A program made the translations under genes and the position numbers. A stretch of DNA of 64,000 nt from Cymodocea nodosa (Eukaryota; Streptophyta; Magnoliopsida; Alismatales; Cymodoceaceae): assembly GCA_036874045.1 (NCBI GenBank), contig CM072335.1:19661501-19725500 (forward strand). The letters are read 5' to 3'. The notes beneath the pieces were generated by a model. That model had not been told where the DNA came from and ran no database searches. It worked only from the letters and a program-made list of their open reading frames with translations. Shown in pieces: positions 1-50,976 of this stretch. Numbering within the stretch: position 1 is the stretch's first letter; each line of letters begins with the position of its first letter.

Positions 1-690
1 AATTCTGCAATTTATGAAAAATTATATTATTGGAGACCTACAGGAAATTGGGGTGAAGATTTACACTTACGTGTGTATAATTTTTTGAACATATCTTGGA
101 ATGAAAACATTATAATATATCTAGGACAGAAATCATTAATTAACCAAACACATGTCATACTTGATGGTTATATCTATTTAGTCACGAAGATATCAATAGC
201 ATATAGATTTGATTTATACATAGTGAGCATAGACAGTTATGATGATTATATAGAAATTTTACCTGTACCGAGTGAAATAGCTAAACCACCATCTGCAGAA
301 TTTAATGAAATTCAAATAGGAATGTGGTATAATGAAGAAGTTGATCCTACTTTATGTTTGATAAGATGGTGGGATGAATTGATGAAATTTCAAATATGGA
401 TTATGGAAGACATGAATGAATGGAAGTGGGAAGAGGAGTATATTGAAATAGATGTAGAAATAGAAACTGCTACATTACCCTGGAACCAAAAAGGATCCCT
501 TACTGCATTACATATCATTAATGGTAATACACTCGTATTTGGAATTTATAATATATTGCATGTTTACAAATTAAAAAGTAACAAGAACTGCATTAAAACA
601 GAATTAATAGCAAGAAGAACTATGCCTAAAAAGTTTGCTTGGACTGATACATTTATTCCATTTGTTTCTACTTTTCAATCATGTTCTTAA
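1..690 (+). CDS. F-box-associated protein, C-terminal part, element A0 (partial at left edge)
   Basis: The frame is open from base 1 to a TAA at 688-690 (229 codons); the N-terminus lies outside the window. It aligns without gaps to about residues 150-378 of the F-box proteins at 9696-10832 and 11552-12688. Visible blocks resemble the F-box-associated domain that binds SCF substrates: a VSIDSYDDYIEILPVPSEIA block, a GMWYN...CLIRWWDE block, a WIMEDMNEWKWEEEY block and a late GNTLVFGIYNILHVYKLK strand. It is clearly diverged from the other two copies yet has no stop or frameshift. It is followed by the same 3' noncoding region and polypurine tract as copy 2, so it belongs to a second element of the same family rather than to a host gene. 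The substrate is unknown. Confidence 0.75.
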   Translation, partial: NSAIYEKLYYWRPTGNWGEDLHLRVYNFLNISWNENIIIYLGQKSLINQTHVILDGYIYLVTKISIAYRFDLYIVSIDSYDDYIEILPVPSEIAKPPSAEFNEIQIGMWYNEEVDPTLCLIRWWDELMKFQIWIMEDMNEWKWEEEYIEIDVEIETATLPWNQKGSLTALHIINGNTLVFGIYNILHVYKLKSNKNCIKTELIARRTMPKKFAWTDTFIPFVSTFQSCS

Positions 691-1108: not shown

Positions 1109-1151
1109 TTTACATTGAGGACAATGCAAAATGTAGGTATGGGGGGGAGGT
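1109..1151 (+). other. Internal polypurine-like tract of A0
   Basis: An ATTGAGGACAATG box is followed by a run of seven G's and GAGG. The same box and G-run occur in A1 (13121-13161), E (27664-27704) and C (53919-53957, minus), always about 1.1-1.3 kb before the terminal polypurine tract. This box is typical of Athila/Tat-type gypsy elements downstream of pol. Confidence 0.6.
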
Positions 1152-2450: not shown

Positions 2451-2480
2451 GGGACTAGCAAAATTTAGGTATGGGGGAAG
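2451..2480 (+). other. Terminal polypurine tract of A0
   Basis: GGGACTAGCAAAATTTAGG is followed by ATGGGGGAAG and then at once by TGTTTAGAA, the first bases of the family A LTR. This is the plus-strand primer site for reverse transcription. It matches the A1 tract at 14441-14471. Confidence 0.75.
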
Positions 2481-2496
2481 TGTTTAGAAAAATAAG
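2481..2496 (+). other. Deletion junction: LTR start fused to mid-pol
   Basis: About 15 bases of the family A LTR (from TGTTTAG) run straight into a reverse-transcriptase frame. The rest of the LTR, the primer-binding site, ORF1, protease and the N-terminal half of RT are missing. The simplest reading is two tandem family A elements sharing an LTR, followed by one large deletion. Confidence 0.6.
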
Positions 2497-4436
2497 TAAA
2501 AGATATTAGATCATTTCTAGGACATGCTAGATTTTATAGAAGATTTATTAAAGATTTTAGGAAAATAGCTAGACCTTTAACCAATCTATTAAAAGATGTC
2601 CCATTTAATTTTGATAAAAATTGCAAAGAAGCATTTTTCAAGCTTAAAACTAGCTTAATTTCAACTCCTATAATTCAAGCACCTAATTGGAACCATCCAT
2701 TTGAATTAATGTGCGATGCATCTAATTTTGCTGTAGGAGTAGTGTTGGGACACAAGATAGAAAAATCTCCTAGAGTGATTCATTATGCAAGCAAAACTTT
2801 AAATGATGCTCAAGTTAATTATACAACTACTGAAAAAGAGCTATTAACTATTGTGTTTGCCTTAGAAAAGTTTAGATCATATCTGATTGGAGCTAAAGTA
2901 GTAGTATATAAGGATCATTCAGCTTTAAAACACCTAATAGCAAAGAAAGAGACCAAACCTAGATTGATCTGATGGATATTATTATTACAAGAATTTGATC
3001 TAGAAATTAAAGATAAAAAAGGTTGTGAGAATGTAGTAGCAGATCATTTATCAAGATTACAAATAGAAAAATCAAATATTGAAATTAAGGATAATTTTCC
3101 TGATGAACAATTAATGACCATCAACACAATGCCTTAGTATGTAGACATAGTTAATTACTTAGTTACTAGTTTAACACCTAAATATTGGAATAGATAGGAT
3201 AAGAAATTGTTCTTTACAAGAGTAAAATATTACTATTGGGAAGACCCATACTCATTTAAGAAATGTCCTGATCTGGTTTTAAGGAGGTGTGTTCCAGAAA
3301 CTAAATATTAGAGCATATTGTCTTGCTGCCATGACCAAGCATGTGGAGGGCATTTTGGTTTAGGGAAAACTGCTGCTAAAATTCTATAATGTGGATTTTA
3401 TTGGCCAACACTATTCAAAGATGCTCATAAATATTGCTTAAGTTGTTTAAAATGTCAACAAATAGGAAGAATATCAAAGAGGAATATGCTGCCTCTTAAT
3501 CCTATTGTTGTGGTTGAAATCTTTGATGTGTGGGGAATAGATTTTTTGGGTCCATTTTCTATGTCTAATCAATTTAATTATATATTGTTAGGGGTGGATT
3601 ATGTATCTAAATGGATAGAAGCTATTCCTACAAAAACTAATGACAACAAAGTGGTAATACATTTTATAAGAACCAATATAATTGCCAGATTTGAAATACC
3701 TAAAGCTATTATCAGTGATAGAGGAACTCATTTTTGTAATAGAAGTTTTGAAACCTTAATAAAGAAATATGGTGTAAATCACAAAATTACAACATCATAT
3801 CTTCTGTAAATAAGTGGACAAGTAGAAAGTGCAAACAAACAAATTAAGTTAATCTTAGAAAAAATAGTAAATCCTACTAAAATAGATTGGGCTAATAGAT
3901 TGATAGACGCACTTTGGGCTTATAGAACTGCTTATAAGACAAACTTAGGTATGTCACCTTTTAGGCTAGTATATGGAAAAAGTTGTCATTTACTAGCTAA
4001 AATTGAACATAAAGCTTATTGGGCATTAAAAACTCTAAACATTAATTTAAATCAAGCTACTGAGAATAGAAAAATATAATTGATTGAATTAGAAGAATTT
4101 AGGAATGAAGCTTATTCAAAAACTGTAAGAGAAAAAGAGAAAATGAAGTTCTGGTATGACAGGAAAATTATTCCAAAAACCTTTGAAATAGGACAAGAAG
4201 TATATCTTTATATGACTAGACTCCATAACCATCTAGGAAAATTAAGATCTAGATGGGCAGGACCTTACATAGTTTGAAATATTTATCCCTATGGAGTTAT
4301 TGAAATTGAAAATCCTAAAAATCAAAATATATTTAAAGTAAATGGATAAAGACTTAGGCCTATTTTGAAAATACCAAAAAGTTCCCTTGGAATTATAGAA
4401 GAAGTAAGAGTAGAGGATTACTCGAGCTTCACTTAG
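2496..4436 (+). pseudogene. pol: Ty3/gypsy pol fragment of A1: RT end, RNase H, integrase
   Basis: One frame runs the full 647 codons with no frameshift but about nine internal stops. In order: the RT tail ([17 protein letters not shown]), RNase H ([39 protein letters not shown] in place of the usual TDH), the integrase zinc region (CHDQACGGHFG ... CLSCLKCQQ), the DDE core ([27 protein letters not shown]) and the C-terminal RWAGPYIV block. Stops sit where relatives have Gln or Arg, as expected from CAA/CAG/CGA to TAA/TAG/TGA change (for example 2970, 3195, 3807, 4077). It is dead as a protein. The family is Athila/Tat-like by RT and integrase wording and by the tRNA-Asp primer sites of its relatives. 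Confidence 0.9.
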
Positions 4437-5253
4437 TAAGAAATTTTCTGAGTATAAAAAAAAAAACCTTATTTAAATATAATGACGGTTAAACTAAAAG
4501 GAATTATCGGTTTTACCGAAACATATTTTAAAAAGAAAAAAAATTGTTGTGGTTCAACCGACATGATCAACCAGTCTAACCGAAACACAAAAATATAAAA
4601 TGATATATATATTATATTTAGTTTAATGTCGGTATTACCGAAGTATAGTATCGGCTCAACCGAAAGAATATATATATATATGTATGTATATAATTTAGGT
4701 TCAACCGAGGAATATAACGGTTTGATCGAAAAATTTTAAAGTGTGGAAAAAGTAAGATTGGCTAGACCAAAAATTCTTCGGTCTTGACCGAAGTAAAAAT
4801 TATTATTATATTCATTTTTATTAGATATAACTTTATGGGAAGTCCGTTGAGTTACACTTAACTCAATGAACTTACTCCGTTGAGTCTAAGATAAGTTAAC
4901 GAACTTACCTCGTTGAGTTAACTCTAGCTCAACGGAGTATTGTAGTTAAGTCCACGGACTAAGTCCGTGGAATTAACCATAATTCCACGGATGAGAGAGT
5001 GAGAGTTTTGCGTGGGAAGTGACTCGATTACCTGCCTAAACTTAGGACTTATTTATACTAAACTTAAGGTTTGGGGGCATTATCCGTAGAATCATTTAGA
5101 ACTTAGAACAGTAGAGATAAGAGCGATTCCATTTCATTGTGTAACTCTACGATGAGGAAGATGACACCCGAGTTCTAGGAAAATGTAGTTGACACGTTAG
5201 AATTTCTTAAAGATTCGGAGGAATGGCACACGAGGTAGAAAATCAAGAATACG
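4437..5253 (+). promoter_or_regulatory. Spacer between pol and accessory ORF with two classes of inverted repeats
   Basis: No gene. At 4484-4800 there are repeated near-palindromes built from TCGGTT and ACCGAA half-sites separated by two to five bases, plus a TATATA run at about 4669-4690. At 4838-4992 a second class begins, made of TAACTCAACGAA and its complement TTCGTTGAGTTA, ending with TCCACGGACT/AGTCCGTGGA. This second class is the same as in the family A LTR. Downstream (about 5047-5060) is an AT-rich TTATTTATACTA stretch that could be a TATA region. I read it as an LTR-derived internal promoter; this is inference. Confidence 0.45.
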
Positions 5254-7150
5254 ATGAGGGAAAAAGAGCTACAAAAGGTAGAATCTGACCTTTTCTATTG
5301 GAGGAAAGTGTTAGTAGATTTGGGTATACAAATATTTCAGATAATGGAAACTAGAATCAAAGTTGCTACGGAAGTTGCTGTAAGTAGAGAGAGAAGAATC
5401 AGGCCAAATAATGAAGTTACCCTAGAACTAATCCAATGTAAGTCCCACCTCTGGTTCAAAAGACGCATAGGTAGACAGACTCAGTGGCAATCTGGGAGCA
5501 ACAAAGGAAAGAAAATGAAGAAGAGGCAACTGAAGAACAAGTGGAACCGACTGCTGAAAGACCTGTTCCTAAGGAACAACAGCTAGGACCTTTAGTTCCA
5601 CCACCAAGGCCATTGGAACAAGCAGCAATTTTGGGGCCTTCTACTGAGGAAGAAAGAAGAGAATTTCAAGAATTGGTTCAAATAGGAAAAGACCAAGAGA
5701 ACTAGAAGAATTGGTAGTAGCTATAGCATATCTGGTGTTTGATGCACGATGCAAAAAGAGGGCTGTAGAAAAGTTGAAAGCCCAATATAAAATCAAAGTG
5801 GAACAACATCAAGAAACTACTACCAGACCTAATGCAAGAGGAGCTGAAGCTGGTCCTTTGAGATCAGTAATTATAGAAAAAGTTAAATAGGAAGATCCAG
5901 TACTTGTGACTCAAAGGCCTATAGAGCCCATTTTTGTAGATTTAATCTCAAAAGAAGAAGAGGAAGATCAGACACAATTAATCAGAAGAAGGAAAGAAAA
6001 ATAGATAGTGCCTGAATATCAAGAAGAGATTAAATCTGAAATACCAATATCAATAGGGCCTGTAGAGTCGATTTTTGTAAACTTGCTATTCGATTCTAAG
6101 GAGAAGCAAGAGCAAAGAACTCTTCAACAAATTTTGAACAATATTCAAGACAGAGTGGAGAGTTCTACCGACTCACCACCACAGACAAAAGCAGAAGCAA
6201 AAATACAAGAATTTGTGGAGCATTTTCAGCAAGTTCAAGTTCAGCATATGGAAGAGCAAGTTCAAGAACAAACCCCTCTAGAGCAACAAATTCACATTCC
6301 TGACCTGATTGAAACAACAATTCTAAATGAAGTACACTTTTGGAGTTAGGAAGCTTATAATAAATACCAAGAGATAAGGGGTTGTGATATCATTTACAGT
6401 AGACCTATAAATTGGGACGGAATGCAAGAAATCAAAGATTTATTTGAGTTCTAAGGTCTACTGTAGTTTATTTCTCAAGAAAGAGGGCATGTAGTATATG
6501 AGAATCTAGTGCCCTACTTTTATGCAAACTTAAGAGAAGGAGAAGGATGATTAATTTCCAATGTGGAGCAAGCTGATGTATAGATAACACTAGAGCTTCT
6601 CCACAACATTTTAGGATTGAAGAATGAAGAACTAGAAATTTTGGAAAGCACAACTATAGTCGAGTGGATAGAACAGACCATAAAGGATTGTTTAGATATC
6701 AATCTTGGTGTGCCATTATTAAATAGACTAAAGCAATTAAATGGTAAAGCACACATGATAGCTAACATTTTGATTAAGAATATTTACCAACGACAAGGCC
6801 ATGATATAGAACTAAGTCAATTTGTCAAATGGGCCACATATGTAGTTGTGAACAGAATTCAGATAAATTGGTTTATAGTTTTTATCTCCAAGCTGAGAAC
6901 AGTGAAGAAGAAATTATTTTATGGAGATCTGATTCCACTATTGATGGTGGACTGTATCGATTTCATGAAATAGACATCTAAATGGATAAGATCTAGAACC
7001 ATTTCAGTGAAAGAGTACAGAAATTATGCTGTTGTAGAGATTGCTGAACCTTCTAGAGGAGTTACAGGAGTTGTAGAAAGGATTAACCAATTAGAGCAAC
7101 AAGTAGAAAGACTCCAAAAGGAAGTAGATGAACTTAGGAGAAAATATTAA
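5254..7150 (+). pseudogene. Accessory ORF of gypsy A1, 'putative plant transposon protein'-like
   Basis: Most of the protein (5702-7150) is in one frame with scattered stops; the first part lies in other frames (5254-5586, 5484-5705). The N-terminal half is Gln/Glu/Pro-rich and probably disordered. The conserved core, about 6385-6960, contains YSRPINWDGM, LVPYFYANLREGEG, ILGLKNEELEILE, LNGKAHMIANIL and KLFYGDLIPLL. It aligns closely with the minus-strand ORF of copia B at 17314-17950 (YSRPVKFEGM, LINCFYSNLIVEEG, VLGLKNEGVKLSE, LNGQAHFIAKLL, ILFYGDMIL). The FYANL...ILG pattern is that of the retroelement-linked plant domain called putative plant transposon protein (PF20167). The last 30 residues form a heptad-like coiled coil (INQLEQQVERLQKEVDELR). 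Function is unknown. Confidence 0.65.
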
Positions 7151-7944
7151 ATTGTATTGTTTGTCTACTTGTATATATTTGTATGAAAAATATCTAATTG
7201 ATTGTAATGTAAATTATTCATATAAATGAATGTATGTTTTTCAGATGTTTTTGCATTAGTATTGGAGAATGATGTAATGGATGAATTATCTTGAATATTA
7301 TATAACTATTTGAACAATGTGCAAAACTATTTAAAAGATTTATAAATTTTATAAATGACAAGATTAAATGCAAGATGACTGGTTAATGCTGAAAATATCT
7401 ATACGTTGCAAAGTAAAATATAAGTTCTGCATAATATGAAATGAACTGTAAGTTAAATATTTATATCACGATCAGATTCAAATGAGTTTTAAATTAAAAC
7501 ACTTCATTAATGACATGTATTTAACTTTATTTAAGTTAACAGAATGTAGGAGAGAAAAACATAGAAGTTAATACAAGGAGTAAGCTTAAAAGTTGCTAAG
7601 TGTTAACTCAACGAAGTAAGTTCGTTGAGTTAACCTTAACTCCACAAGGTCAATAATATAATATAAGGTCACTCCGTTGAGTTATCTATAACTCAACGAA
7701 GTTAGTCCATGGAGTTAGCAACAGTAACTGAAGTTTGTCTGTTGAGTTAACTGTAACTCAACGAGGTTAGTTCGTGGATTGAGCTAAACAGTTATTCTTT
7801 TAGCCATGAATGAAACTTCGTAGGTCTAGCGGTTATTAAAATTTAAAATTAGAAGTGACACACGTAACCATAAAAATAGGAACCGCACTACACGTTACAA
7901 GACACATTCTTGCAATGAGATTCATTTGCTTTATGGACATGCAT

Positions 7945-7954
7945 TATAAATATA
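7945..7954 (+). promoter_or_regulatory. TATA box upstream of A1 gag
   Basis: TATAAATATA sits downstream of the inverted-repeat array and about 175 bases before the gag ATG at 8130, the same relative order (array, TATA, leader) as in the family A LTR (TATA at 15279-15288). Confidence 0.4.
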
Positions 7955-8085
7955 GAACAGAATGTTATTTACAAGTTACCAACACTTTTGGAAGAAAAGG
8001 AACTTCGTTGGGGAACTAAAAGGAGAAGCAGCTGATTCAACTTCATCCGTCAACAACTATTTACTAAGTATAAAGCTTCAAATTG

Positions 8086-8091
8086 GTATGT
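8086..8091 (+). promoter_or_regulatory. Candidate 5' splice site in the gag leader
   Basis: ATTG|GTATGT is a good plant donor sequence, 44 bases before the gag ATG. The nearest acceptor-like AG (8125) would give an intron of only about 40 bases, too short for plants. Paired with the strong acceptor at 9683-9684 it would remove gag and join the leader to the F-box ORF. This is inference only. Confidence 0.3.
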
Positions 8092-8129
8092 AATTAATCT
8101 TCTATTATTTTACTTTATGTTAAGAGTTT

Positions 8130-9478
8130 ATGAGCACATGGATTCATTCTCCTAGCACTAAACGATTAGTAAGAACACCTACACAGGATTCTTCAACACA
8201 GAGATGTACTGAAATATTTTCTGAATTAGACTTTAACAAAATCCTTAGGGGTGTAGCTAACCTTTCTTTAAAAGAGAACGAAGATATGACTGCTCCAGTA
8301 GAGAAACCATTAAGGGAAATTCTGTATCTTGAATTAGTTGATGAACCTTCATATATTCGATTACCAAACTTTGAGGGAGATAGGTTTGAACTAAAATCTA
8401 ATTATATTAGTCAATTGCCACATTTTCATGGATTAGAAAGAGAGGATGCCTATTATTTCCTTAGAGAATTTAACGAAGTTTGTCAAATGATGAAAATGCC
8501 GAACATGAGTATTGATGGTATTAAACTTAGATATATCCCTTTTTCTTTAAAAGACATAGCTAAGAGATGGTATATACTCTGTTGCCTAATTCAATTTCTG
8601 CATGGATTGAATTTTGCTCTGTTTTTCTAGAAAAATATTATCCAACACATCAAACAATTAAAAAGAAGAAGGAAATATTAATGTGTAGCCAAAAACAGGG
8701 AGAATCATTTTGGAAATATTTTAAAAGATTTAAAGATTTACTGACTCAATGTCCACATCATGCAATGAGTAAAGCACAATTAATAGGTATAATTTATGAA
8801 GGCATAGATATTTCAACGAAATCTTTATTAGAATCTACTTGTTAGAATGGATTTTTAAAACTGTGTAGTGAAGAAGCATGGGCATATTTAGAAAACTTTG
8901 CAAAAAGAACTGCATAGTGGGAAAACTCAACTGAAGTTATTATAGATAAAAGAATATTGCCAAGGGGAATGCATGAAATAGATTCAAGCACTATGCTTGA
9001 AGTTAAATTAACTGAATTAATAAAGAAAATAGAAGAGTTATCATTAAATCAGAAGCTAGTAGAAAAGAATGCAAACGTTAATGATTTAGATATTATTTAT
9101 GCTAGAAACTAGAAAGATAACTTTGGAAATTCTTATAACCCTAATTAGAGAAATCACCCAAATTTATCTTAGAGAAACAACAATTTCCTAGGAGGAGAAA
9201 ATATAAATGACAAAAATATAAGTTATGAAGCTTTAATTGAACAAGGTTCTAGAATAGAAAAATTAGAAAAGATAATCCAACAATTAAACAATCGTCTAGA
9301 TCTTGTATTTGGAAATGCTGCAATTCAAAATCAAAATATAAATAGAAATATACCCCCTAGACAGAAAGAATCAATGGAAGTTAGACCAACTAGAGGATTG
9401 CCAATGCAAGCAATACCTAACCCTGCCAACAGAACTATTAATGAAATTGATACCACCTCTAGGAGGGTAGCTGAATAA
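8130..9478 (+). pseudogene. gag: Gag capsid-type protein of A1, located downstream of pol
   Basis: The retrotransposon gag domain is recognisable: RFELKSNYISQLPHFHGLEREDAYYFLREF, a KLRYIPFSLKDIAKRW block, LLPNSISAWIEFCSVFLEKYYP, ESFWKYFKRFKDLLTQCPHHA and IIYEGID. The C-terminal part (RIEKLEKIIQQLNNRLD ... RQKESMEV) is the usual gag tail. One frameshift lies near 8570, and there are about five stops, nearly all at former Gln or Trp codons; the duplicated tail at 11011 keeps two of the Trp codons. No CCHC zinc knuckle is seen, unlike the gag of E. Position is the oddity: in ordinary gypsy elements gag precedes protease, here it follows integrase and the accessory ORF. Confidence 0.8.
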
Positions 9479-9695
9479 AATAGTATAACTAAAGTAACTA
9501 TGTATAATATAGTAAGCTGAAAAATATAAAAAAGAAAAAATGTAAGTTTAATTATAGTTAGTAGTATCATAGAGTTATTACTTAACTCATCGAACTTAGT
9601 TCGTTGAGTTATGACCTAACTCCACGGGGGTGTGAAGTAGCTATGTTAATTTTGTCTTTGTTAATTTTTGTTTATGTTATACAGAATCACTATAG
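9479..9695 (+). promoter_or_regulatory. Spacer between gag and F-box copy 1: palindrome and 3' splice site
   Basis: At 9583-9611 is a 29-base near-perfect palindrome with half-sites TAACTCATCGAA and TTCGTTGAGTTA around CTTAG, then CCTAACTCCACGG. It is followed by a T-rich tract and TTATACAG ending at 9684, a strong plant 3' splice acceptor 11 bases before the F-box ATG. In the duplicate (11438-11551) the palindrome is kept but the acceptor AG reads AA. Confidence 0.5.
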
Positions 9696-10832
9696 ATGGA
9701 ATTGATGAAATTAACACTAGATGCACTAAGGGAAGTACTAAGTAACCTGTCAACTAAAGATCTATGCAGATTGTGTTGTGTGTCAAAGGAAATCAAAGAC
9801 TGTGTTAGAGAAAAATATTTTCATGGACTACATGCTGCAAAGATGACTAAGATAAGAGATGGATTTTTATGGAAGTCATTTAATCGTAGTTCAATCTGCT
9901 ATGAATATCTGAATATGGAAGAAACTACTAGAATTCCACCCAATACATTAAAAGGAATAGATCATATTATGGGGATGGATGAATGATTAATTATATATAG
10001 AATCAAGCCAAGGTATGCAATTCTGTTACCTGACATTTTGATTAGAAATCCTATCACAAGAGGAGAATGGAATATAGGAAGGCCTAATAGATATGAAGTA
10101 CCAACTGAAAATTGTGGGTCAGCTTTAATATTTTCTGATAAAAATTTAGCCATTCCTGAAAAATTAAATTATTGGAGACCAACTGGAAATTGGGATGAAG
10201 ATTTATGCTTAAGTGTGTATAATTTTCTAAATAGATCTTGGACTGAAAATACTATGATATATCTAGGACAAAAATCATTAATTGACAGCATGCATGTCAT
10301 ACTTGATGGATATATATAGCTAGTCACAGATATATCAATTGCATTTAGATCTGATTTATACATAGTAAGTATAGACAGTTATGATGATTTTATAGAAATA
10401 TTACCTATACCGAGTGATATAGCTAAACCACTAACTTCAGAATATGATCAAATTCAATTGGGAATGTGGTATAATGAATATGATAATCCTATTGTATGTC
10501 TGATAAGATGGTGGGATGAATTGAAGAAATTTCAAGTATGGATTATGAAAGACCTAAATGAATGGAAGTGGGAAGAAGAATATATTGAAATAGATGTAGA
10601 AATAGAAATAACTACATTATCTTGGAATACAAGAGGATCCCTTTCTGCATTTCATTTTATTAATAGTAATACACTTATATTTAGTATTGATAACATACTG
10701 CAAGTTTACAAGTTCAAAAGGAAAGCAAATTGCATTAAAACAGAATTAATAGCAAGAAGAATTATGCCTAAAAAGTTTGCATGGACTGACACATTTATTC
10801 CATTTGTTAATACTTTTCAATCATGTTTTTAA
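9696..10832 (+). pseudogene. F-box/FBA protein, copy 1
   Basis: The reading frame is 378 codons, the usual length of plant F-box proteins with an F-box-associated domain. Residues 5-45 form the F-box (LDALREVLSNLSTKDLCRLCCVSKEI), which would bind SKP1/ASK in an SCF ubiquitin ligase. The remainder has FBA-like blocks: LIIYRIK...AILLPDILIRNPITREEW, YIYLVT, VSIDSYDDFIEILPIPSDIA, GMWYNEYDNPIVCLIRWWDE, WIMKDLNEWKWEEEY and the final NTLIFSIDNILQVYK. Two nonsense codons are present: TGA at 9984-9986 (GGA in copy 2) and TAG at 10317-10319 (TAT in copy 2). There is no frameshift. Start chosen because the ATG directly follows the splice acceptor and precedes the F-box. Codon use is AT-rich like its neighbours. 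The substrate is unknown. Confidence 0.8.
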
Positions 10833-11010
10833 ACTATGATTCTATGCTTTTAATATTGTGTGTATTCTGCATGTTTGTTTTTTTTTTTTTGAAAAGAAAA
10901 ATTTTAGTTTTAGTTTTATTCTATAAAAAAATAAAAACAAAATATCAATCCAGTTTGTTGGTATCTATTTTGGGAAACCAACTGGCTTGTTTATGAACCA
11001 CCAAAGGCAT
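10833..11010 (+). other. 3' noncoding sequence after F-box copy 1
   Basis: A T-run at 10878-10890, an A-rich stretch and the first two hairpins of the conserved three-hairpin segment; the segment is cut at CCAAAGGCAT by the tandem-duplication junction. Confidence 0.6.
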
Positions 11011-11341
11011 TGGAGAAATCATCCGAATTTATCTTGGAGAAACAACAATTTTCAAGGAGGAGAAAATATAAATGACAAAAATATAAGTTATGAAGCTTTA
11101 ATTGAATAAGGACTAGAATAGAAAAATTAGAAAAGATAATCCAACAATTAAACAATCGTCTAGATCTTGAATTTGGAAATGTTGTAATTCAAAATCAAAA
11201 TATAAATAGAAATATACCCCCTAGACAGAAAGAATCAATGGAAGTTAAACCTATTGGAGGATTGCCAATGCAAGCAATACCTAATCCTATCAACAGAACT
11301 GTTAATGAAATTGATACCTCCTTTGGGAGGGTAGCTGAATG
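11011..11341 (+). pseudogene. gag: Gag C-terminal fragment in duplication unit 2
   Basis: This repeats the gag tail of 9146-9478. It keeps Trp codons in RNHPNLSWRNNNF that are TAG in unit 1, but has a CAA to TAA change and a small deletion at about 11105-11112 (EQGSRIEK reduced to a stop and LE). It has no start of its own and is a by-product of the duplication. Confidence 0.75.
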
Positions 11342-11551
11342 AAACAGTATAACTGAAGTAACTATGTATAATATAGTAAGCAGAAAAGAAAAAAAATGTA
11401 AGTTTAATTATAGTTAGTAGTATCGTAGAGTTATTACTTAACTCAACGAACTTAGTCCGTTGAGTTATGACCTAACTCCACGAGGGTGTGAAGTAGCTAT
11501 GTTAATTTTGTCTTTGTTAATTTTTGTTTATGTTATACAAAATCACAATAG

Positions 11552-12688
11552 ATGAAATTGATGAAATTACCACTAGATACACTAAGGGAAGTACTAAGTA
11601 ACCTGTCAACTAAAATTCTATGTAGATTGTGTTGTGTATCAAAGGAAATCAAAGACTAAGTTAGAGAAAAATATTTTCATGGACTACAAGTTGCAAAAAT
11701 GACTAAGATTAGAGATGGATTTTTATGGAAGTCATTTAATCGTAGTTCAATCTGCTATGAATATCTGAATATGGAAGAAACTATTGGAATTCCACCCAAT
11801 ACATTAAAAGGAATAGATCATATTATGAGAATGGATGAAGGATTAATTATATACAGAACCAAACTAAGGTATGCAATTCTGTTACCCGACATTTTGATTA
11901 GAAATCCTATCATAAGAGAAGAATGGAATATAGGAAGGCCTAATAGATATGAAGTACCAACTGAAAATTGTGGGTCAGCTTTAATTTTTTTTGATAAAAA
12001 TTCAGCCATTCCTGAAAAATTATATTATTGGAGACCAATTGGAAATTGGGATGAAGATTTATGCTTAAGTGTGTATAATTTTCTAAATAGATCTTGGACT
12101 GAAAATACTATGATATATCTAGGACAGAAATCATTAATTGACAACATGCATGTCATACTTGATGGATATATATATCTAGTCACAGATACATTAGTTGCAT
12201 TTAGATCTAATTTATACATAGTAAGCATAGACAGTTATGATGATTTTATAGAAATATTACCTATACCGAGTGATATAGCTAAACCACTTACTTCAGAATA
12301 TGATCAAATTCAATTGGGAATGTGGTATAATGAATATGATAATCCTACTGTATGTCTGATAAGATGGTGGGATGAATTGAAGAAATTTCAAATATGGATT
12401 ATGAAAGACCTAAATGAATGGAAGTGGGAAGAAGAATATATTGAAATAGATGTAGAAATAGAAATAGCTACATTATCTTGGAACACAAGAGGATCCCTTT
12501 CTACATTTCATTTTATTAATGGTAATACACTTATATTTAGTATTGATAACATACTGCAAGTTTACAGGCTAAAAAGGAAAGTAAATTGCATTAAAATAGA
12601 ATTAATAACAAGAAGAATTATGCCTAAAAAGTTTGCATGGATTGACATGTTTATTCCATTTGTTACTACTTTTCAATCATGTTTTTAA
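11552..12688 (+). pseudogene. F-box/FBA protein, copy 2
   Basis: Same 378-codon frame as copy 1, with one nonsense codon: TAA at 11657-11659, replacing the Cys codon of KDCVRE at residue 36, at the end of the F-box. From 11699 to the stop at 12688 the frame is open (330 codons including an internal ATG) with all FBA blocks intact. The F-box itself reads LDTLREVLSNLSTKILCRLCCVSKEI. The upstream splice acceptor has lost its AG (11539-11540 reads AA), so this copy may not have been expressed in the same way as copy 1. Only one stop in 378 codons contrasts with the heavily stopped pol of the same element. Confidence 0.8.
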
Positions 12689-13120
12689 ACTATGATTCTG
12701 TGCTTTTAATGTTGTATGTATTCTACATGTTTATTTTTTTTAGAAAAGAAAAATTTTAGTTTTAGTTTTATTCTATAAAAAAAAAGAAAACAAAATATCA
12801 AACTAGTTTGTTGGTATCTGTTCTGGAAAACCAACTGGCTTGCTTGTGAGCCACCAAAGGCATAGGAGCTTGGGTTCCACACAAGACACTGATTTAACAA
12901 GTTAAATTGTTATTTTGTTATATACTTTGCTTTTATGTGTGAATGAAAAGTTTTTCAGAATAAAAAATCGGAAGATATTGAAGGAGATACAAAAGGACGA
13001 GGTATGTAATTGATTACTTATCCTGAATTTACATTTCAACTAAGTTCGTTGAGTTAGATGCAAAGTTAACGAAACAATATTCATGCCTGCTATAATTACT
13101 GTATTTATTGTAAAATCTTT

Positions 13121-13161
13121 TACATTGAGGACAATGCAAAATGTAGGTATGGGGGGAGGTA
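13121..13161 (+). other. Internal polypurine-like tract of A1
   Basis: ATTGAGGACAATG followed by GGTATGGGGGGAGG, as in A0, E and C; about 1.3 kb before the terminal tract. Confidence 0.6.
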
Positions 13162-14440
13162 ATTAAGTAACAACCACGTAATTTTTTTAATTAGAGGAAT
13201 TAGAATGGTACTGCAAAAGTTCTGTCTATGGAAATTGAAAATTTTTTGAACAAGAATTTACTGTAACTATCTGATATTTGAAACTATAAAATTTTTAGGA
13301 ACTGTAACTACTTGAATGTTATATTTATAATCTTATATAAGATGCTACAAATTTTATTATTCATACAAATCTAGATATGGTATCTTATGTTGTTGCTGAA
13401 TTTTATGAGTTTAACAATTTCACGATTTTAAAATGAAATCAGAATGCTTAATTGAAACTCAGTTAATTATCTGAAATCTTGAAAGAGCTAAAATGTTGAT
13501 TTTTGGATTAAATGAGATGCATATGATCAAGGATACATTTAATTTGATTGATTAAACTTGTAGAATGATTTATGTGTAAAGCTTATTAAACTACAAAAAA
13601 AGTATGAGCTTATTGACATGGATTCATATTTTCAGTAAATAATAGAAGCAGGACTATATGAGATTTGTGTTTTATTGCATCTGTATTAATGAAATACATA
13701 CATATATTGTGTTGAAAAGAAAAAAAAAAAAGAGAGAAAAACTTTGAGAGTTTATTGACTTGTTTGATCACCAACCTTTTGTACTTGAGCAGATAGGTAT
13801 GTAAGGATTGTTGACCTGAAAAAGGACTCTTTAAATTTGGCAACCTAAGATCCTGATCAGATCTGGGATTGTTGACTGAAAGCTCGATACATGGGTACAC
13901 TACAAAGCTCTTGTCTGATTCAAGCTTGTCAAATTAACTTTTAAAGTACAAATATGCATATACTATTTTGAAAAGATACAAGTGTTTTGTGAAATACAGA
14001 TATCTTTTAAATCGAATATATGTTCTATTATCTAAAATTGTTGAAGTATGAATCTAGAATAGACTTTTGAAGTTGTTTATTTGAGATACAATTCTTTATT
14101 CTACTTGTCTTAATCACATTGAATTAGATTGTGTTTTGATTCGTATGTATTTGAAATTTATTCTGGAAATCATATTGGAAAATTCAAGATGACAGATGCT
14201 GAAAAGAAGAACAAATGATAATATAATTAATACCTATGTGATGTTGATATATTTTGTATGTAATTTACATATATTCTAAGTATATTTGCAAGTTGAAGAG
14301 GAGAAAACAAAGTTAAAATAGATTATTGAAAAATACAGAAAATCTATATAGTAATCTAATTTATTATTCTGAAGAAGAACTAAGTGAAGACTTAATTCTA
14401 GCACTTTAGAAAGACCAACTAATTAGATCTTACTTTGCTA

Positions 14441-14471
14441 AGGGACTAGCAAAATTTAAGTATGGGGGAAG
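14441..14471 (+). other. Terminal polypurine tract of A1
   Basis: GGGACTAGCAAAATTTAAG then TATGGGGGAAG, directly before the LTR start TGTTTAGAA at 14472. Confidence 0.8.
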
Positions 14472-15278
14472 TGTTTAGAATAAAAAAGTGCATAATATTA
14501 ATGGTTAAATGATGGTTAATTGCATAATATTTAGCTTATCATATGAGAATTAAGCCATTATGTTATAATTGCACTGTTATATGCTTTAATGAAAGAATCT
14601 ACATAATTTCATGGAATTAATGTTAATTTAGTATATTTCTGAACTATCGATAAATTGTAGGCTGTGAAATTCTGAAGTATTTGAATTTTCTATTATTTCG
14701 GAGAGTTATGTTTAATGTACTAGATAGTTTTGTTTTAAAGAATATTTTATTATTTCCTGAAGTACACGTGGTGAAACCATAATGCATGACTTAAGTGGAT
14801 TTTCAGTAAGTTATATATTAACTATTTGAAATGCATCTAGGCAACGAATAGTTAGGTTCGTAAGTGTCTGAAATATTTGAACTTGTTAAGTTAGAATTAT
14901 GCACATGTTGAATTTAAATGCTTTAGTATATCACATGAGATGCACATGTTTAACTCGTTAAGTTAGCATAACTGTATGCGTTGAGTTAAATGAATACACA
15001 CTAAGGTAACGCGTTATGTTAGCAGCTTATTTCTTTATTGCATGTGTTTTATAGTTAAATCAACGAAGTAAGTTCGTTAAGTTATCTATAACTCCACGGA
15101 CCATTTAATTTCTAATATGCCACTGTAGCGATTATAGAAATAGGACATTCGAAGGAAAACCACGATTGCACGTATCACGTAGGAATTCACTCGTGGAAGG
15201 GGGAAGAAATCACCATCGTTGATCTTAATGAAGGAAATCTAATTGATCATCTAAAGTAGAAGCAGTTACTACTGAAGA

Positions 15279-15288
15279 AATATAAAAG
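15279..15288 (+). promoter_or_regulatory. TATA box of the family A LTR
   Basis: AATATAAAAG, conserved in solo LTR F (about 45780-45789) and, reversed, in the G LTR (about 62120-62130). It lies downstream of the inverted-repeat array, as expected at the U3/R border. Confidence 0.55.
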
Positions 15289-15442
15289 AAGAGGAGAAAA
15301 AACGAAGAAAGTGTGGTTGGCGGTGTGTGGTAGTGTGTGTAAAGGTGGAGGACTGCGCTAACTACAGGTAGTGTCGGAAGTTCACTAAAGCATCCACACC
15401 ATCACCAACAATTCACCAACATCACCAACATTACCATAATCA

Positions 15443-15447
15443 CCAAC
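15443..15447. repeat. Target-site duplication of copia B, left
   Basis: CCAAC immediately before the B LTR; the same five bases follow the other end at 47855-47859. Joining the flanks restores the family A LTR sequence as seen in F. Confidence 0.85.
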
Positions 15448-16634
15448 TATAGGATCGTCTGTATCACAAAAGGGGGGGTGAATTGTGTCTTTAATAATTA
15501 AAATACTAGCAGATAAAATAAGAGCACAAAACAATTGTAAATGAAATTCTATTCTTTATGTAAAGACAGAATTTACTATATCTTTTTAGCTTAATTCCCT
15601 TCTTGAAAGTTTTGATACAGTAATGTTCGATATACAATTCAAATAGAAAAACAAAGCTCGTATTCAAAACTAATTTTGAGTTGTATAAAACCTGATCTTT
15701 ATGCACATAGCTTCTTTCTTTCTCTTTGCTCAGCTTCTGTATCTCTTCTTCCCCAATTGTCGAATTTCCAGACTTCTTGCGTTTGCAGCTTCTTTTCTGA
15801 AATTGCTTGGAATTTCGAACTTCTTCTGATGTTGGAGAATTTTTCAGAATATGAATATTTAAACTTAACTTTTCAGTTAGGGATCTAGATTGAATATTCA
15901 GAGTTGGTTTTTGAGATTGGGATCCTCTGTTGTAATGCAGCTCGTACTCTCTATTAGTAGAACTATGTTCTCACGTTCAACATGTTCATCCACTTAATCC
16001 ACAATCCACGTACTAATTTTTTCTTTAATCCAAATTACTATCTTTTTGAGTTTCCACTTTCTCCACTATAATTTTGAATTTCCACGATCTCCACTCGTAG
16101 ATTCATCGAGACTTTATCTTCCTGGAGTCTTGTAGAATATCTTCTAAGTCCTCGATTTAGTCGAACACTTATCCTTTAAGTTTTGTAAAAACTCGAATAC
16201 TTATCTGTAACTCTTCGAGTTTTTGTACCTGCAAAACACGTGACTAAACATAGCAAACTTATCTATTTGTTAGTCATTTTATAAAACTCAAAGACTTATC
16301 TATCCATGCATATAAAAACTCGAACAGTTATCTAACTATTCGATTTTCATTACCGAACGCGCATGGAAAACACGTGACAACTTAAAACATTAAAAACACA
16401 CGCGTAGATAACTTAACTATACGAGTTTTTTAACATAAACTATTCGACAAAAATGAAACGTTAACTATCTGAAAGTTTAACTATCGAAAATCTAACTCTT
16501 CGAAAATCTTTAACTTATCCGACATAAAAATGAAACTTTCCGATAATCTGTTAACTATTATACTTAGAGAATATTATTTAGACTTATTTAAAAACTTTAA
16601 TAAAGTATATATCATCAAAACAAAATTCCTAGCA
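15448..16634 (-). repeat. 3' LTR of copia B
   Basis: Matches the 5' LTR at 44624-44968 plus 47011-47854. The terminal TG has become TA at 15448; the other end is ...CCTAGCA at 16634, next to the polypurine tract. Its U3 side holds repeated CTCGAATA/TATTCGAG and CTATCGAAA-type half-sites with TTAACTAT spacers (about 16180-16560) and CACGTG at about 16240 and 16372. Short ORFs inside are not genes. Confidence 0.85.
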
Positions 16635-20908: not shown

Positions 20909-20926
20909 TGGCACTGTTGCCGAGGA
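20909..20926 (+). other. Primer-binding site of E (tRNA-Asp type, degenerate)
   Basis: TGGCACTGTTGCCGAGGA differs at a few bases from TGGCGCCGTTGCCGGGGA, the complement of the plant tRNA-Asp 3' end, seen intact in F at 46949-46966. Confidence 0.7.
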
Positions 20927-21051
20927 TTGGCAATTTGGCTTAGTTTATTTTTACCATATTTGAAGTTCTTAGTTGGTTGTTTGATAAATTTTCATAAACA
21001 TATCTTTCTTGTGCTTAGTTGTGAATTTTATTGCTTAAATTTCTTGCAAGT

Positions 21052-21458
21052 ATGTCAAATTTTCATCATGATGATCCTTTTAAGTTTATAAATGATTTTT
21101 ATCTGAAAGTGCTTGTTCTTATTGCCATGTAAAAGGTCATGATGAAAGCATATGTACCAGCAAGTTATTTAATATAAAAATTCAACCAATAGAAGAAACA
21201 ACTTATGTTAGTGATGAATATGATGTCTTGCATGATGGTGAATTTTCTTACGATTTTGATATGCATAAATCTCATATTGATGAAAGAAATGATGTTTGTG
21301 ATTGCTCTCATATTAGTAGTAGTTCTATAGAAGAGTCCATGAGGAATATAGAGAGAATCATAGAGTTAGGAGATAGCTATTATGTTGCCACTAAGCTCCT
21401 ACAACAAAAAGAAGATGTAATTGTCATAGATGATGAAGAAGACTCTAATGTAGATTAA
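21052..21458 (+). pseudogene. ORF1 of E: short protein with one CCHC zinc knuckle
   Basis: ATG at 21052 (MSNFHHDDPFKFIND), then a one-base shift near 21095 into the frame holding CSYCHVKGHDESIC (21114-21155), a CX2CX4HX4C knuckle. The rest is acidic and ends at 21458, three bases before the next frame. It has no capsid domain. Similar knuckle ORFs start elements C (59055-59438) and G (about 50590-50878). It looks like the nucleocapsid part of a normal gag left at the 5' end. Confidence 0.65.
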
Positions 21459-21461
21459 AAC

Positions 21462-24400
21462 ATGAATTTAATCTTAAGATCTGGAAAAACCATAGAAAGA
21501 AACATATTAGAACATGAAAGTGAAGAAAAACAAAGTGAAGAAAATGTAGATGAAAAGGAAGAAAATATGTTGACAAGAGATGAACATAAGGATGTAGAAC
21601 TAGAACATGAAGGAGTTGAACTTGAAAAATGTCTAATGGATGAAACTAATGAAGAATTAATTGAAGAAAACCCTGTTATAGACTTAGAAATGGATAAAAA
21701 GAAAGAAGAAACATCTGAAAATATGAACAACAAACCACCATTTCCTAGTCAGCTTGACAACAACAAAGAAAATGAGGAAAATGAAGCTATAAGAACCATA
21801 TTTGAGAAAATCAATGTTAATATGCATATGTTAGAATTAATTAGAAAAATTCCAGCATATGGGAGGGTGCTTAAAAACCTTTGTACCAAGCATAGGAAGC
21901 CAAGAAAAAAAATTAAATAAGCAAGTTTATTTAACTGAGTTAAGTAGTTCAATGTTGCTTGATAGTTTAGCTAAAAAATTCAATGATCCTGGTGTTCCTC
22001 TAATAACTTGCTTAATAGGGAATGTTTTAATTGAAAAAGCATTATTAGATCTTGGTGCAGGAGTTAACGTGATGCCAAAACACTTATATGAACAATTGGG
22101 AATCACAGGAATTAAGAAAACTAGAACATTAATTAAACTAGCTGATAGATCATATAGGAGTCCCATGGGTATTGTAGAAGATGTCTTAATTCAAATTGAA
22201 GATTTTATATACCCAGTCGACTTTATCATTTTAGAAACCAATGCACCAACTTGTGAACCAAATGAATCTACATTGATCCTAGGGAGACCATTCTTAGCAA
22301 CTATTAATACCCACATTAATTGCAGAAATGGTAAAATGTCAATCTCCTTTAACAATAAGGTGATATCATTGAACATTTTTAAAAGAGATAGGACTATAAA
22401 CCATCAAGTAGATGACAACATTAGTGTAAGCATTTCTGAATTATTTGAAGAAGTCGAAAATAGTAGTAATGAGGAAGAACTTAGTGCTGAAATTTGCTTT
22501 CTAGACGTTGAAGATAATCTAGAACACAAGGCATCGTTACAAGAGAATAGTGGTGAGCATGAAATGAATAATGACTTGATTTTAGAAGTTAAGGAAAGGA
22601 ATAAATTAAAAGCACTCCCACAAAATCTGAAATATGCATTCATAGATAAGCAAAATGAATATCCTGTTATAATTGGAGCAAACTTAATCCCAAACCAAGA
22701 AGAAAAATTAATGAAGATATTAAGTAAAAATAAGAGAGCTCTTGGTTGGCAATTGAGTGACATTGTAGGAGTTAGTCCCACTATAGTTCAACATAGAATT
22801 ATCCTAGAAGATGAGAACTATGCCTTTAGAGAACCTCAACGTAGATTAAATCCCCAAATGAGTGAGGTGGTAAAGAAGGAGATAGTTAAATGGCTTGACA
22901 ATGGCATTATATACCCTATTAGTGATAGTAGGTGGGTAAGCCCTGTGCATGTAGTGCCTAAGAAATCGGGCTTTACAGTAGTTGAAAATCAAGATCATGA
23001 GTTAGTGCCTACTAGAATAAAAACTAGTTGGAGGGTATGTATTGATTATCGTAAATTGAATTCTGCAACTCGTAAAGATCATTTCCCATTGCCATTTGTT
23101 GATTAGATGCTAGAAAGGTTAGCTGGATGAAAATCAAGATCATGAGTTAGTGCCTACTAGAATAAAAACTAGTTGGAGGGTATGTATTGATTATCGTAAA
23201 TTGAATTCTGCAACTCGTAAAGATCATTTCCCATTGCCATTTGTTGATTAGATGCTAGAAAGGTTAGCTGGACATGAATTTTATTGTTTTCTTGATGAAT
23301 ACTCTGGGTACAATCAAATACCCATAATCTCTGAGGATCAAGAAAAGACTACTTTTACTTGTCCAAGTGGAACCTATGCTTTTAGGCGTATGCCTTTCGG
23401 TTTATGTAATGCGCCTGCAACATTTCAAAGATGCATGGCAGGAATTTTTTATGATATGAATGAAAATTTTTTAGAAATTTTCATGGATGGCTTTTCTATT
23501 TTTGGCAAAAATTTTGATATTTGTTTACATCATTTAGATATGGTTTTGCAAAGATGTGTTGAAAAGAATTTTATTTTAAATTGGGAAAAGTGCCATTTCA
23601 TGGTGAATGAAGGCATAGTTCTTGGGCATGTGATATCTAATAGAGGGATTGAGGTGGATAAGGCAAAAATTAACGTTATATCTCATTTGCAGCCACCTAA
23701 ATCTGTTAAGGAGGTTAGAAGCTTTTTAGGACATGTTGGTTTTTATCGTAGATTTATTCATGATTTTAGCAAGATAGCAAGACCTATAACTAATTTACTT
23801 GCAAAAGATTCTGAGTTTGTTTTTGATGAACATTGTCTTGCTGCCTTTAATCAACTTAAGCATGCATTAATATCTCCTCCTATAATTCATGCCCCAATAT
23901 GGGATTATCCTTTTGAAATTATGTGTGATGCCTCCAATTATGCAGTAGGTGCAGTACTTGGGCAAATAATTGATAAGAAACATCATGTCATATGCTATGC
24001 TAGTAAAACTTTGAATGAAGCTCAAGTAAATTATACTACCACAGAAAAAGAATTTCTTGCTGTTGTTTTTGCTCTAGATAAATTTAGACCATATTTAGTT
24101 TGCAATCAAGTTATTGTGCATATTGATCATGCAGCTATTAAACATTTGATGAGTAAAAAAGATGCAAAACCAAGATTAATTCATTGGGTTTTATTGTTGC
24201 AAGAATTCAACATAGAAATTAAAGATAAGGTTGGAAAAGAAAATTTAGTTGCTGATCACCTCTCTAGATTAGAAAATATTCCAGCATGCAATAATGTGAT
24301 TAATGAAAAGTTTCCTGATGAGAGTTTATTTCTAGTTGGTGAGTTACCTTGGTTTGCAGACATTGCTAACTATCTTGCTATAGGGTTAATACCAACTGAT

Positions 24401-25573
24401 TTATCTAAACCATATAAGAAAAGATTGAGGTACATGGCTAAACATTATGTTTGGATGGAACCTTATTTGTATAAAATGGGTTCTGATCAAATTTTAAGAA
24501 GATGTCTTCCTGAAGATGAAATTGCTAATGTCTTAAATTTTTGTCATAGTCATGCTTGTGGAGGTCATCTTAGCCATAGAAAAACTTCTTTGAAAATTCT
24601 TGAATGTGGATTTTATTGGCCTTCTCTAATTAAAGACTCTAAAGATCATTGTAGACATTGTGATAGATGCCAAAGAATGGGAAAAATTTCCAAACGAAAT
24701 ATGATGCCTTTGAATCCTATCATTGAAGTTGAAATTTTTGATGTTTGGGGCATTGATTTCATGGGACCATTTACCATTTCTTTTGGTTATTCTTATATTT
24801 TGTTGGCTGTTGATTATGTTTCTAAATGGATTGAAGCTATCCCAACTAAGAGAAATGATGCTAAAGTTGTTGATTTTCTTAGATCTAACATTTTTGCTAG
24901 ATTTGGTATTCCAAGAGCTATAATTAGTGATAATGGACCTCACTTTTGCAACAGAGTATTTCAAATGACTTTGAGGAAGTATGGGGTTACTCACAAGTTA
25001 GCAACACCATATCATCCTCAAACAAGTGGGCAAGTTGAGGTATCCAATAGACAAATCAAGCACAAGCTCGAAAAAGTAATCAAACCAAGTAAGAAGGATT
25101 GGGCAGAAAAGCTTAATGATGCACTTTGGGGTTATAGGACTGCCCATAAAACTGTGTTGGGAATGTCACCATTTAGAGTAGTTTATGGGAAAGCATGTCA
25201 TTTACTTATAGAAATAGAACATAAAGCAGAATGGGCTATTAGAACATTTAACATGTGTGTTGATGATGCAGGAAAAGCAAGGAAATATCAACTCAATGAG
25301 CTGGAAGAAATAAGAAGAGAGGCTTATGAAAATGCAAAGATTGCAAAAGAACGAGCAAAAGCATTCCATGACAAGAAAATTTTAAGAAAGGACTTTCATG
25401 AGGGACAAGAAGTTTTATTATATAACTCTAGATTACATTTATTCCCTGGAAAATTTAAGACTAGATGGACAGGACCATTCATCATTAAACATATATATAA
25501 TCATAGAGCTATAGCTATAGAAAATTGTAAGACAGGATTTAAAACTGTAGTGAATGGTCAAAGACTTAAATAA
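21462..25573 (+). pseudogene. pol: Ty3/gypsy pol of E: protease, RT, RNase H, integrase
   Basis: Three frames: 21462-21905 (acidic linker, then NMHMLELIRKIPAYGRVLKNL), about 21905-23106 (protease with DLGAGVNVMP and LILGRPFLAT, then the start of RT), and 23252-25573 (rest of RT, RNase H, integrase; 773 codons open). The breaks are a frameshift near 21905, a TAG at 23104-23106 (FVD*MLERLAG, Gln in relatives) and a 145-base tandem duplication. The RT catalytic box reads FMDGFSIFG: the second Asp of xxDD is Gly (23489-23491), so the enzyme would be dead. Integrase has its HHCC region (HSHACGGHL ... CRHCDRCQ), DDE residues ([24 protein letters not shown]) and [11 protein letters not shown]. Confidence 0.9.
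22983..23272 (+). repeat. 145-bp tandem duplication in E RT
   Basis: 22983-23127 is repeated at 23128-23272, apparently without differences, including the TAG stop. As 145 is not a multiple of three, it shifts the frame. The stop predates the duplication since both copies carry it. Confidence 0.9.
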
Positions 25574-26014
25574 TATTATCTTGGAAAAACCTACAATCAT
25601 GGAGAGAGTGCTTTGTTGTTGGAACCTAATTATAATTAGTTTTTATATGTATTTAGTTGTAGATGTAGTTTTTCTTTTCTTAATTCCTAGTAATTTTTCA
25701 TTCTATGTATTAGTGTGTTAGTAGTTAACAATAAAATTGATTATTGCAAGTTCACGTCAAAATTTTATATGCTTATTATCATGCATCTATCCTTGTTGTT
25801 TCATGTCATCTTGAATTTATATGGTGAACCATTCATGCTGAAATTTTATGATATATGATGGTACTTGTATACTTTGATGATATTTCACCATGTAAATAAC
25901 TCTTGCATATACTCTTGAATTACATAACTGATGTGAATGTCTTAGTGCATGAAAAGTTGGGAGAGAGGCGTAGATAACAAGTTGATACACATCGAGAATC
26001 AAAAAGAAACACAC
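25574..26014 (+). other. Spacer between integrase and gag of E
   Basis: AT-rich, no gene, no LTR or primer site seen. Thus gag downstream of pol is not explained by a visible nested insertion here. Confidence 0.6.
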
Positions 26015-44611: not shown

Positions 44612-44623
44612 TCTGATACCAGT
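44612..44623 (-). other. Primer-binding site of B (tRNA-iMet)
   Basis: Minus-strand TGGTATCAGAGC next to the 5' LTR. Confidence 0.9.
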
Positions 44624-44968
44624 TGTAGGATCGTCTGTATCACAGGAAGGGGGTGAATTGTGTCTTTAGTAATTAAAATACTAGCAGATAAAACAAGAGC
44701 ACAAAACACTCGTAAATGAAATTCTATTCTTTATGTAAAGAGAGTATTTACTATATCTTTTTAGCTCAATTTACTTCTTGAAAGTTTTGATACAGTAATG
44801 TTCGATATACAATTCAAATAGAAAAACAAAGCTCTTATTCAAAACTAATTTTGAATTGTATAAAACCTGATCTTTATGCACACAGCTTCTTTCTTTCTCT
44901 TTGCTCAACTTCTATATCTCTTCTTCTTCAGTTGTCAAATTTCCAAACTTCTTGCATTTACAACTCCT

Positions 44969-47005: not shown

Positions 47006-47854
47006 CTCCTTTTTTGAAATTGCTTGGAATTTCGAACTTCTTCTAATGTTGGAGAATTTTTCAGAATATGAATATTCAAACATAACTTTTCAGTTAGGGA
47101 TCCAGATTGAATATTCAGACTTGGTTTTTGAGATTGGGATCCTCTATTGTAATGTAGCTTGTACTCTCTATTAGTAGTCGAACTATGTTCTCACGTTCAA
47201 CATGTTCATCCACTTAATCCACAATCCACGTACTAATTTTTTCTTTAATCAAAATTACTATCTTTTTGAGTTTCCACTTTCTCCACTATAATTTTGAATT
47301 TCTGCGATCTCCACTCGCAGATTCACCGAGACTTTATCTTCTTGGAGTCTTGTAGAATATCTTCTAAGTCTTCGATTTAGTCGAACACTTATCATTTAAG
47401 TCCTATAAAAACTCGAATACTTATCTATAACTCTTCGAGTTTTTGCACCTGCAAAACACGTGACTAAACATAGCAAACTTATCTGCTCATTGGTCATTTT
47501 ATAAAACTCGAAGACTTCTCTATCCATGCATATAAAAACTCGAACAGTTATCTAACTATTTGATTTTCATTACCGAACGCACATGGAAAACACGTGACAA
47601 CTTAAAACATTAAAAACACACGTGTAGATAACTTAACTATACGAGTTTTTTAACATAAACTATTCGGTAAAAATGAAACATTAACTATCCAAAAGTTTAA
47701 CTATCGAAAATCTAACTCTTCGGAAATCTTTAACTTATTCGACATAAAAATGAAACTTTCCGATAATCTGTTAACTATTATACTTAGAGAATATTATTTA
47801 GACTTATTTAAAAACTTTAATAAAGCATATATCATCGAAACAAAATTCCTAACA

Positions 47855-50878: not shown

Positions 50879-50958
50879 ATTCTCAATTATAGAAGAAAAC
50901 GCACATACTCCTCTTGCTATTAAAACAAAACAACACTCATAGTTGCTTAGCTTCTCAA

Positions 50959-50976
50959 TCCTCGGTAACGGCACTA
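50959..50976 (-). other. Primer-binding site of G (tRNA-Asp type, degenerate)
   Basis: Minus-strand TAGTGCCGTTACCGAGGA, eight bases inside the LTR end at 50984. Here the site lies outside the LTR in the normal place, unlike F and A1. Confidence 0.65.

Follow-up and report, generated by a model that had tools for sequence, protein, structure and literature searches.

Family A, a Ty3/gypsy retrotransposon lineage with several copies in the 64,000-nucleotide stretch of Cymodocea nodosa DNA analysed here (the window), combines two unusual traits: a resident F-box gene and a gag gene located behind pol. The explanation that we think probable is that of a high-copy family with a pol-before-gag order and a stable, selected F-box gene, whose protein would serve as an SCF adaptor. 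Silencing keeps plant retrotransposons in check, and to our knowledge few genes are known by which they answer it; an F-box gene kept by selection in a family of many copies makes the question of counter-silencing addressable with one protein.

Results

F-Box Frames in the Window

Three copies of one F-box frame lie in the window (Table 1), one in element A0 and two in A1, exactly where an earlier note, made by a model from the sequence alone, had placed them, and the length of 378 codons that it gave for the full frames holds for both A1 copies. It had counted these two as full-length copies, and in this it was mistaken, because both are broken by stops. Both are present in A1 as claimed, but as one gene plus its duplicate: they form a direct tandem duplication with a unit of approximately 1.86 kb that starts within the end of gag, which makes the second copy a by-product of local duplication. 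Identity between A0 and A1 is 85% over the coding part and 86% over the 1.7 kb of non-coding DNA downstream, a stretch that runs to the polypurine tract and then into a TG-starting sequence that is found again as a separate LTR at 44969. The gene is located between gag and the polypurine tract, and in more than one family member, as the earlier note had it. Behind the F-box stop the translations reveal an A-rich tract (700-810 and 10840-10940), perhaps left behind by the capture of a poly(A) message. A0 stops some 10-25 bases into its LTR, where the RT part of the next element follows directly; this junction is most simply read as a deletion.

Table 1. Parts of family A identified in the window, in window coordinates
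Feature	Position	Strand	Remark
F-box frame of A0 (3′ part)	1-690	+	last 229 codons, open; truncated by window edge
Internal purine tract of A0	1136-1150	+	elements B and C each have a counterpart
Terminal polypurine tract of A0 and first LTR bases, then junction to pol	2470-2489	+	
RT end, RNase H and integrase of A1	2490-4360	+	RT_RNaseH E 4.6e-29, rve E 5.6e-15; 5′ part missing
ORFx, broken frame between integrase and gag	5239-7147	+	junctions recurring in genome
gag (capsid), broken	8124-9475	+	resembles gag of element B; recurs in genome
F-box copy 1 of A1	9696-10832	+	378 codons, two in-frame stops
Tandem duplicate (gag end and F-box)	11009-12868	+	93.6% identity to 9144-11015
F-box copy 2 of A1	11552-12688	+	378 codons, single stop, at codon 36
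Internal purine tract of A1	13146-13159	+	present in 29/30 residence-test loci
Terminal polypurine tract of A1	14461-14471	+	tract and LTR start in 30/30 residence-test loci
3′ LTR of A1, proximal part only, TG start	14472-15429	+	85% identical to 44969-45920
LTR copy of family A	44969-46941	+	PBS at 46949
5′ end of another family A copy	48968-51193	-	LTR end, PBS near 50976, zinc-knuckle-like broken ORF, protease region

Residence of the Gene in the Genome

The genome searched was the host's own (374.6 Mb in 28 contigs). Scoring the best 118 of 6684 candidates for the protein of A1 copy 2 gave matches of 84-100% protein identity on most large contigs, nearly all over the full query length, 16 of the 118 being stop-free within the query and the other 102 containing stops. 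For the A0 protein, the best 150 of 5890 candidates were 90-100% identical, 83 of the 150 without a stop. Both lists consist of best scorers and are therefore biased to open frames, and the copy numbers are lower bounds.

A less biased test of residence used as its query the element DNA 3′ of the F-box (13171-14440). The best 40 of 6186 candidates were scored, and 30 of those 40 places, one of them (L039) the window itself, were cut out and examined. The F-box occupies the expected position in 27 of the 30 (it is missing from L058, L062 and L065); the internal purine tract is present in 29, the terminal tract with the LTR start in all 30, and the distal part of the LTR in 25. Among 30 loci drawn from the 118 of the F-box search, two of which (L009 and L011) are the window itself, gag lies upstream in 23 and a purine tract or the flank downstream in 26. 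Searching with the F-box domain led to the same family, which accounts for seven of the eight best places cut out (best 150 of 4219 candidates scored), and F-box searches in this genome are swamped by its copies. The gene occurs across subfamilies whose DNA differs by 15-27%, and the tree of the A1-type F-box frames is star-like, with terminal branches mostly of 0.02-0.05. The F-box is a conserved additional ORF, held at one fixed place by most family A members examined (27/30). The earlier note had regarded it as a resident part of the family and had named two outcomes that would speak against this; the opposite of the first was found, since most members examined hold the ORF, and insertion boundaries of its own, the second, were nowhere seen.

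On contig C2, seven F-box matches fall within 1 Mb (8752576-9714401); they score almost alike, have frames of the same length and contain a single stop apiece, and five gag matches lie among them. We read this cluster as a segmental amplification of one copy.

Gene Order of Family A

We conclude that family A has the order LTR-PBS-protease-RT-RNase H-integrase-ORFx-gag-F-box-PPT-LTR, a composite of junctions from different places, drawn from the pol-ORFx, ORFx-gag, 5′-end and F-box-flank junctions that recur in dozens of copies. In the window, pol, ORFx, gag and the F-box succeed one another in this way (Table 1). The order is repeated at a native place on contig C7, picked for its open F-box, where locus L071 matches 2490-6115 at 91.2% and 6108-6959 at 91.9% and the adjoining L069 carries on from 6960 through gag and the F-box at 90-93% and has an insertion near 7685. 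Of 40 places scored for the pol-ORFx junction (3900-5700; best 40 of 5265), 34 span it over its whole length, and so do 34 of 40 for the ORFx-gag junction (6600-8500; best 40 of 5703), the window included in both cases. The 5′ stretch 49000-51193 on the minus strand, comprising LTR end, PBS, zinc-knuckle-like ORF and protease, is found again, at 90-92%, in 39 further places of the 40 scored (best 40 of 8144); no capsid gene was recognised in it.

Partners within 16 kb were then sought between the lists of best-scoring matches. Among the matches listed, pol-ORFx has gag as a partner in nine cases and the F-box in seven, the F-box has the flank in nine, and the 5′ end has pol-ORFx in two (at 2.23 and 2.29 kb), all downstream and on the same strand. 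For gag and the F-box there are 13 pairs among the matches listed, ten of them downstream on the same strand (nine of the ten at a spacing of 1.10-1.14 kb), one upstream and two on the opposite strand. The means expected by chance for the four pairs tested were 0.04-0.18. Because most places have no partner among the matches listed, these links are samples. On contig C8, a chain of 5′ end, pol-ORFx and ORFx-gag passes through one place.

The RT_RNaseH and rve matches (E 4.6e-29 and 5.6e-15), a polypurine tract adjoining a TG-starting LTR, and a PBS behind the LTR end are all features of Ty3/gypsy elements, but the trait of gag ahead of pol is absent; we read family A as a rearranged member of the group, not as a non-member. 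The PBS pattern is one that we take to be Athila-like, and the Athila name derives from relatives of gag and from motifs rather than from a phylogenetic tree. An env-like ORF behind pol would be expected of an Athila element; ORFx sits behind integrase and matched no Pfam family above the cut-off. Since its place ahead of ORFx and gag recurs family-wide, the pol segment 2490-4360 is assigned to one element together with gag and the A1 F-box copies. The remark in the earlier note that the frames lie beside a heavily stopped pol stands as a count (nine stops in about 620 codons of the translation, junction codon excluded), but this pol is part of the same element. We had also considered a pol-less element consisting of gag and the F-box, based on a weak PBS-like match near 8003 that 101 of 500 shuffles equalled, and dropped it because the pol-ORFx and ORFx-gag junctions recurred; an LTR-end-like match at 7815-7848 outscored 500 shuffles.

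Related short-hairpin arrays, GTTGAGTTAACTC-like, are found behind pol (4841-4991), ahead of gag (7602-7786) and in the LTR (15046-15101). A copia LTR and adjoining pieces (15442-16634, 44618-44969 and 47006-47854) lie between or inside family A copies and also in L069 and L070; two stretches considered as LTR, 15789-16634 and 47006-47854, were dropped and appear to be pieces of a copia insertion.

Element B (20909-28878, plus strand), a relative of family A, has a PBS, a zinc-knuckle ORF, protease, RT and integrase up to 25573 and, behind integrase, an open gag of 453 aa (25949-27310; capsid PF03732, E 9.8e-20), with purine tracts after it; no F-box was seen in it. Its gag has relatives in plants, the best at 38% identity. 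A perfect 145-base tandem duplication (22983-23272) breaks its otherwise long protease-RT frame. Element C (51199-61128, minus strand) has an LTR pair 93.9% identical, a zinc-knuckle ORF, protease, RT, integrase and both purine tracts, and no capsid gene was seen in it.

The Protein

The F-box itself is as recognisable as the earlier note held: PF00646 matches 9696-9983 at E 3.6e-10 and the open genomic copy L013 at E 1e-10, with bit scores of 39.8 in the window and 41.5 and 32.1 in 378-aa genomic copies (cut-off 20.5). In copy 1 it is confined to the first 96 codons. The FBA-like blocks also claimed were not recovered; neither FBA nor any other C-terminal domain, nor any Pfam match outside the F-box, appeared at E up to 1 in two 378-aa copies and two window pieces. 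The predicted structure had a pLDDT of 38, and no fold search was therefore made. Among 5.8 billion proteins, a collection that includes many plants, no homologue was found at E 0.01 (476 candidates) or at E 10 (2365 candidates), in a search that depends on words of five residues in common and overlooks very distant relatives. The viral contigs yielded no relative. No host parent gene was found in the protein collection, and the genome lists are saturated by element copies.

Selection and Decay

Between A0 and A1, dN/dS is 0.49 for copy 2 (P 0.0035) and 0.45 for copy 1 (P 0.0005), against means of 0.97 and 0.98 in neutral simulations with the substitution pattern of the flank. The same comparisons contain 0 and 1 stops versus 7.9 and 7.7 expected under neutrality, and there is no indel in 690 coding bases as against 19 events in the 1.7-kb flank (four beside homopolymers). 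Total divergence is equal in coding part and flank (K 0.166 and 0.157), so the constraint can be seen in which changes occurred rather than in how many.

The deeper comparisons go the same way. The open copies L013 and L018 give dN/dS of 0.40 and 0.38 relative to L001 (80% nucleotide identity) and of 0.26 and 0.26 relative to L008 (73%, over the first 182 codons, the remainder being lost); in each of the four, none of 400 simulations was as low, and neutral dN/dS was 0.91-0.98 overall. Stops number 6 versus about 16.5 expected for L001 and 1 versus 10.3 for L008, a scarcity that is favoured by the choice of L013 and L018 as open copies. Conservation of the F-box core does not clearly exceed that of the remaining protein, with 31/45 identities versus 34/55 and 132/192 elsewhere (L013 to L001).

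Counts of fixed differences and singletons were made after 18 of 58 loci, divergent or duplicate, had been excluded beforehand. When A0 is set against 40 A1-type copies, 23 nonsynonymous and 14 synonymous differences are fixed and no stop is (six multi-change codons set aside); among singletons the counts are 135 and 35, with 21 stops in addition (P 0.033, or 0.015 counting stops). Pseudo-frames in the flank (19 loci) show no such shift (fixed 116/34 versus singletons 420/146, P 0.46), and the fixed ratio of the F-box differs from that of the flank only at P 0.09. A comparison of shared with singleton changes in 30 copies was discarded as evidence of selection, the drop being no greater than in non-coding pseudo-frames. 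Copies 1 and 2 of the tandem pair fit neutrality (dN/dS 0.66, P 0.17; 3 stops versus 3.8 expected).

The F-box frame has been under purifying selection between subfamilies, while lineages were active, and decays after insertion. The proposal of selection after capture is upheld between subfamilies, where dN/dS of 0.26-0.49 lies far under the value near 1 named as its test, but not for recent dead copies and the tandem pair, which are indistinguishable from neutral.

Discussion

By analogy, the F-box protein likely acts via SCF. It would be made as a separate product of the element's 3′ part; its N-terminal F-box would bind host SKP1/ASK, and its C-terminal part may recruit a client protein to the SCF ubiquitin ligase. 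The most attractive candidate for the client, purely by analogy, is a protein of the host that keeps the element down, for example one that acts in silencing. We offer as a tentative possibility that a pol-before-gag Ty3/gypsy lineage uses a permanent F-box gene of its own as an SCF adaptor that removes a restraining host factor, a form of counter-defence. If this is true, it would be a plant retrotransposon counter-defence gene that works by directed protein destruction. Host silencing is a hypothetical target here, because the SKP1 contact of one viral P0 serves stability and not suppression directly (PMC6593998). That same observation, along with the place of the F-box directly behind gag in the family order, would suit a protein that serves the element's own cycle, through turnover or processing of Gag or ORFx or by stabilising itself via SKP1. 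We consider such a role rather unlikely taken as a whole, and control of Gag or ORFx by the F-box protein is a fair rival.

A transduced host gene of no use to the element would account for the neutral substitution seen between the two tandem copies and in recent ones, and for the stops in most of the best-scoring A1-type places, but it is hard to reconcile with purifying selection and missing stops between subfamilies, with the presence of the F-box across subfamilies, and with the majority of stop-free frames among the best-scoring A0-type places; we judge it improbable. Host F-box genes lying in old retroelement debris and multiplied by segmental duplication were rejected as an explanation. 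The window alone is compatible with the duplication of a locus and some copies are clustered, as are those on C2 between 8.75 and 9.72 Mb, but the copies, found on most large contigs, keep one and the same order, have PPT and LTR start, and form a star-like burst. Contradicted by this genome-wide context, by the order pairs and by the 27 of 30 residence loci, the idea seems to us very improbable. Family A also suggests that a position of gag behind pol need not keep a Ty3/gypsy family from prospering, a point relevant to the way in which the ratio of Gag to Pol is set.

In the open-licence literature, judged by titles and the openings of abstracts, we found neither a family-resident F-box gene in an LTR retrotransposon, a search that leaves aside the captured genes of rice and sorghum, nor gag behind pol in such an element, an absence that is no proof in either case. 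Diaspora, as described, has gag first in a single gag-pol frame (PMC1142308), whereas family A has its gag after pol and ORFx, and an F-box gene besides. The sense additional ORFs described for plant LTR retrotransposons are env-like (PMC7264820); that of family A encodes an F-box protein behind gag. Single captures of host-type genes in or beside LTR elements resemble family A in that respect and include the transduced genes of maize Bs1 (PMC13317346), the captured genes of rice and sorghum (PMC3726574) and, in Thlaspi arvense, an F-box "LTR-gene" mentioned as a single gene (PMC8764390). These are reported as single or few genes, whereas the gene of family A is common to a high-copy family, is selected, and has no parent that we could find. 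The Gypsy elements of Phalaenopsis that carry an AlkB m6A demethylase with a proposed role in escape from host control (PMC9289625) are alike in the family-wide gain of a host-type gene and different in its domain; the screen reported there entered 121 angiosperm genomes by reverse transcriptase and lists 15 extra domains, and the word "F-box" is absent from its main text. The cytosine methyltransferases of dinoflagellate and charophyte retrotransposons (PMC5890265) are likewise host-derived regulatory genes that were kept, with a different gene and different hosts. Viral Clink and P0 (PMC3588083) are parasite-encoded F-box proteins expected to contact SKP1, as is the protein of family A, a likeness by analogy with no sequence relation shown. 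Athila-type Ty3/gypsy elements share with family A related gag and pol and a long LTR, and they include pol-less families with gag or with gag and env (PMC2410132). In Arabidopsis, the gag and env of Athila have been under selection in active lineages and decayed afterwards, a course comparable to that of the F-box gene in family A (PMC2410132).
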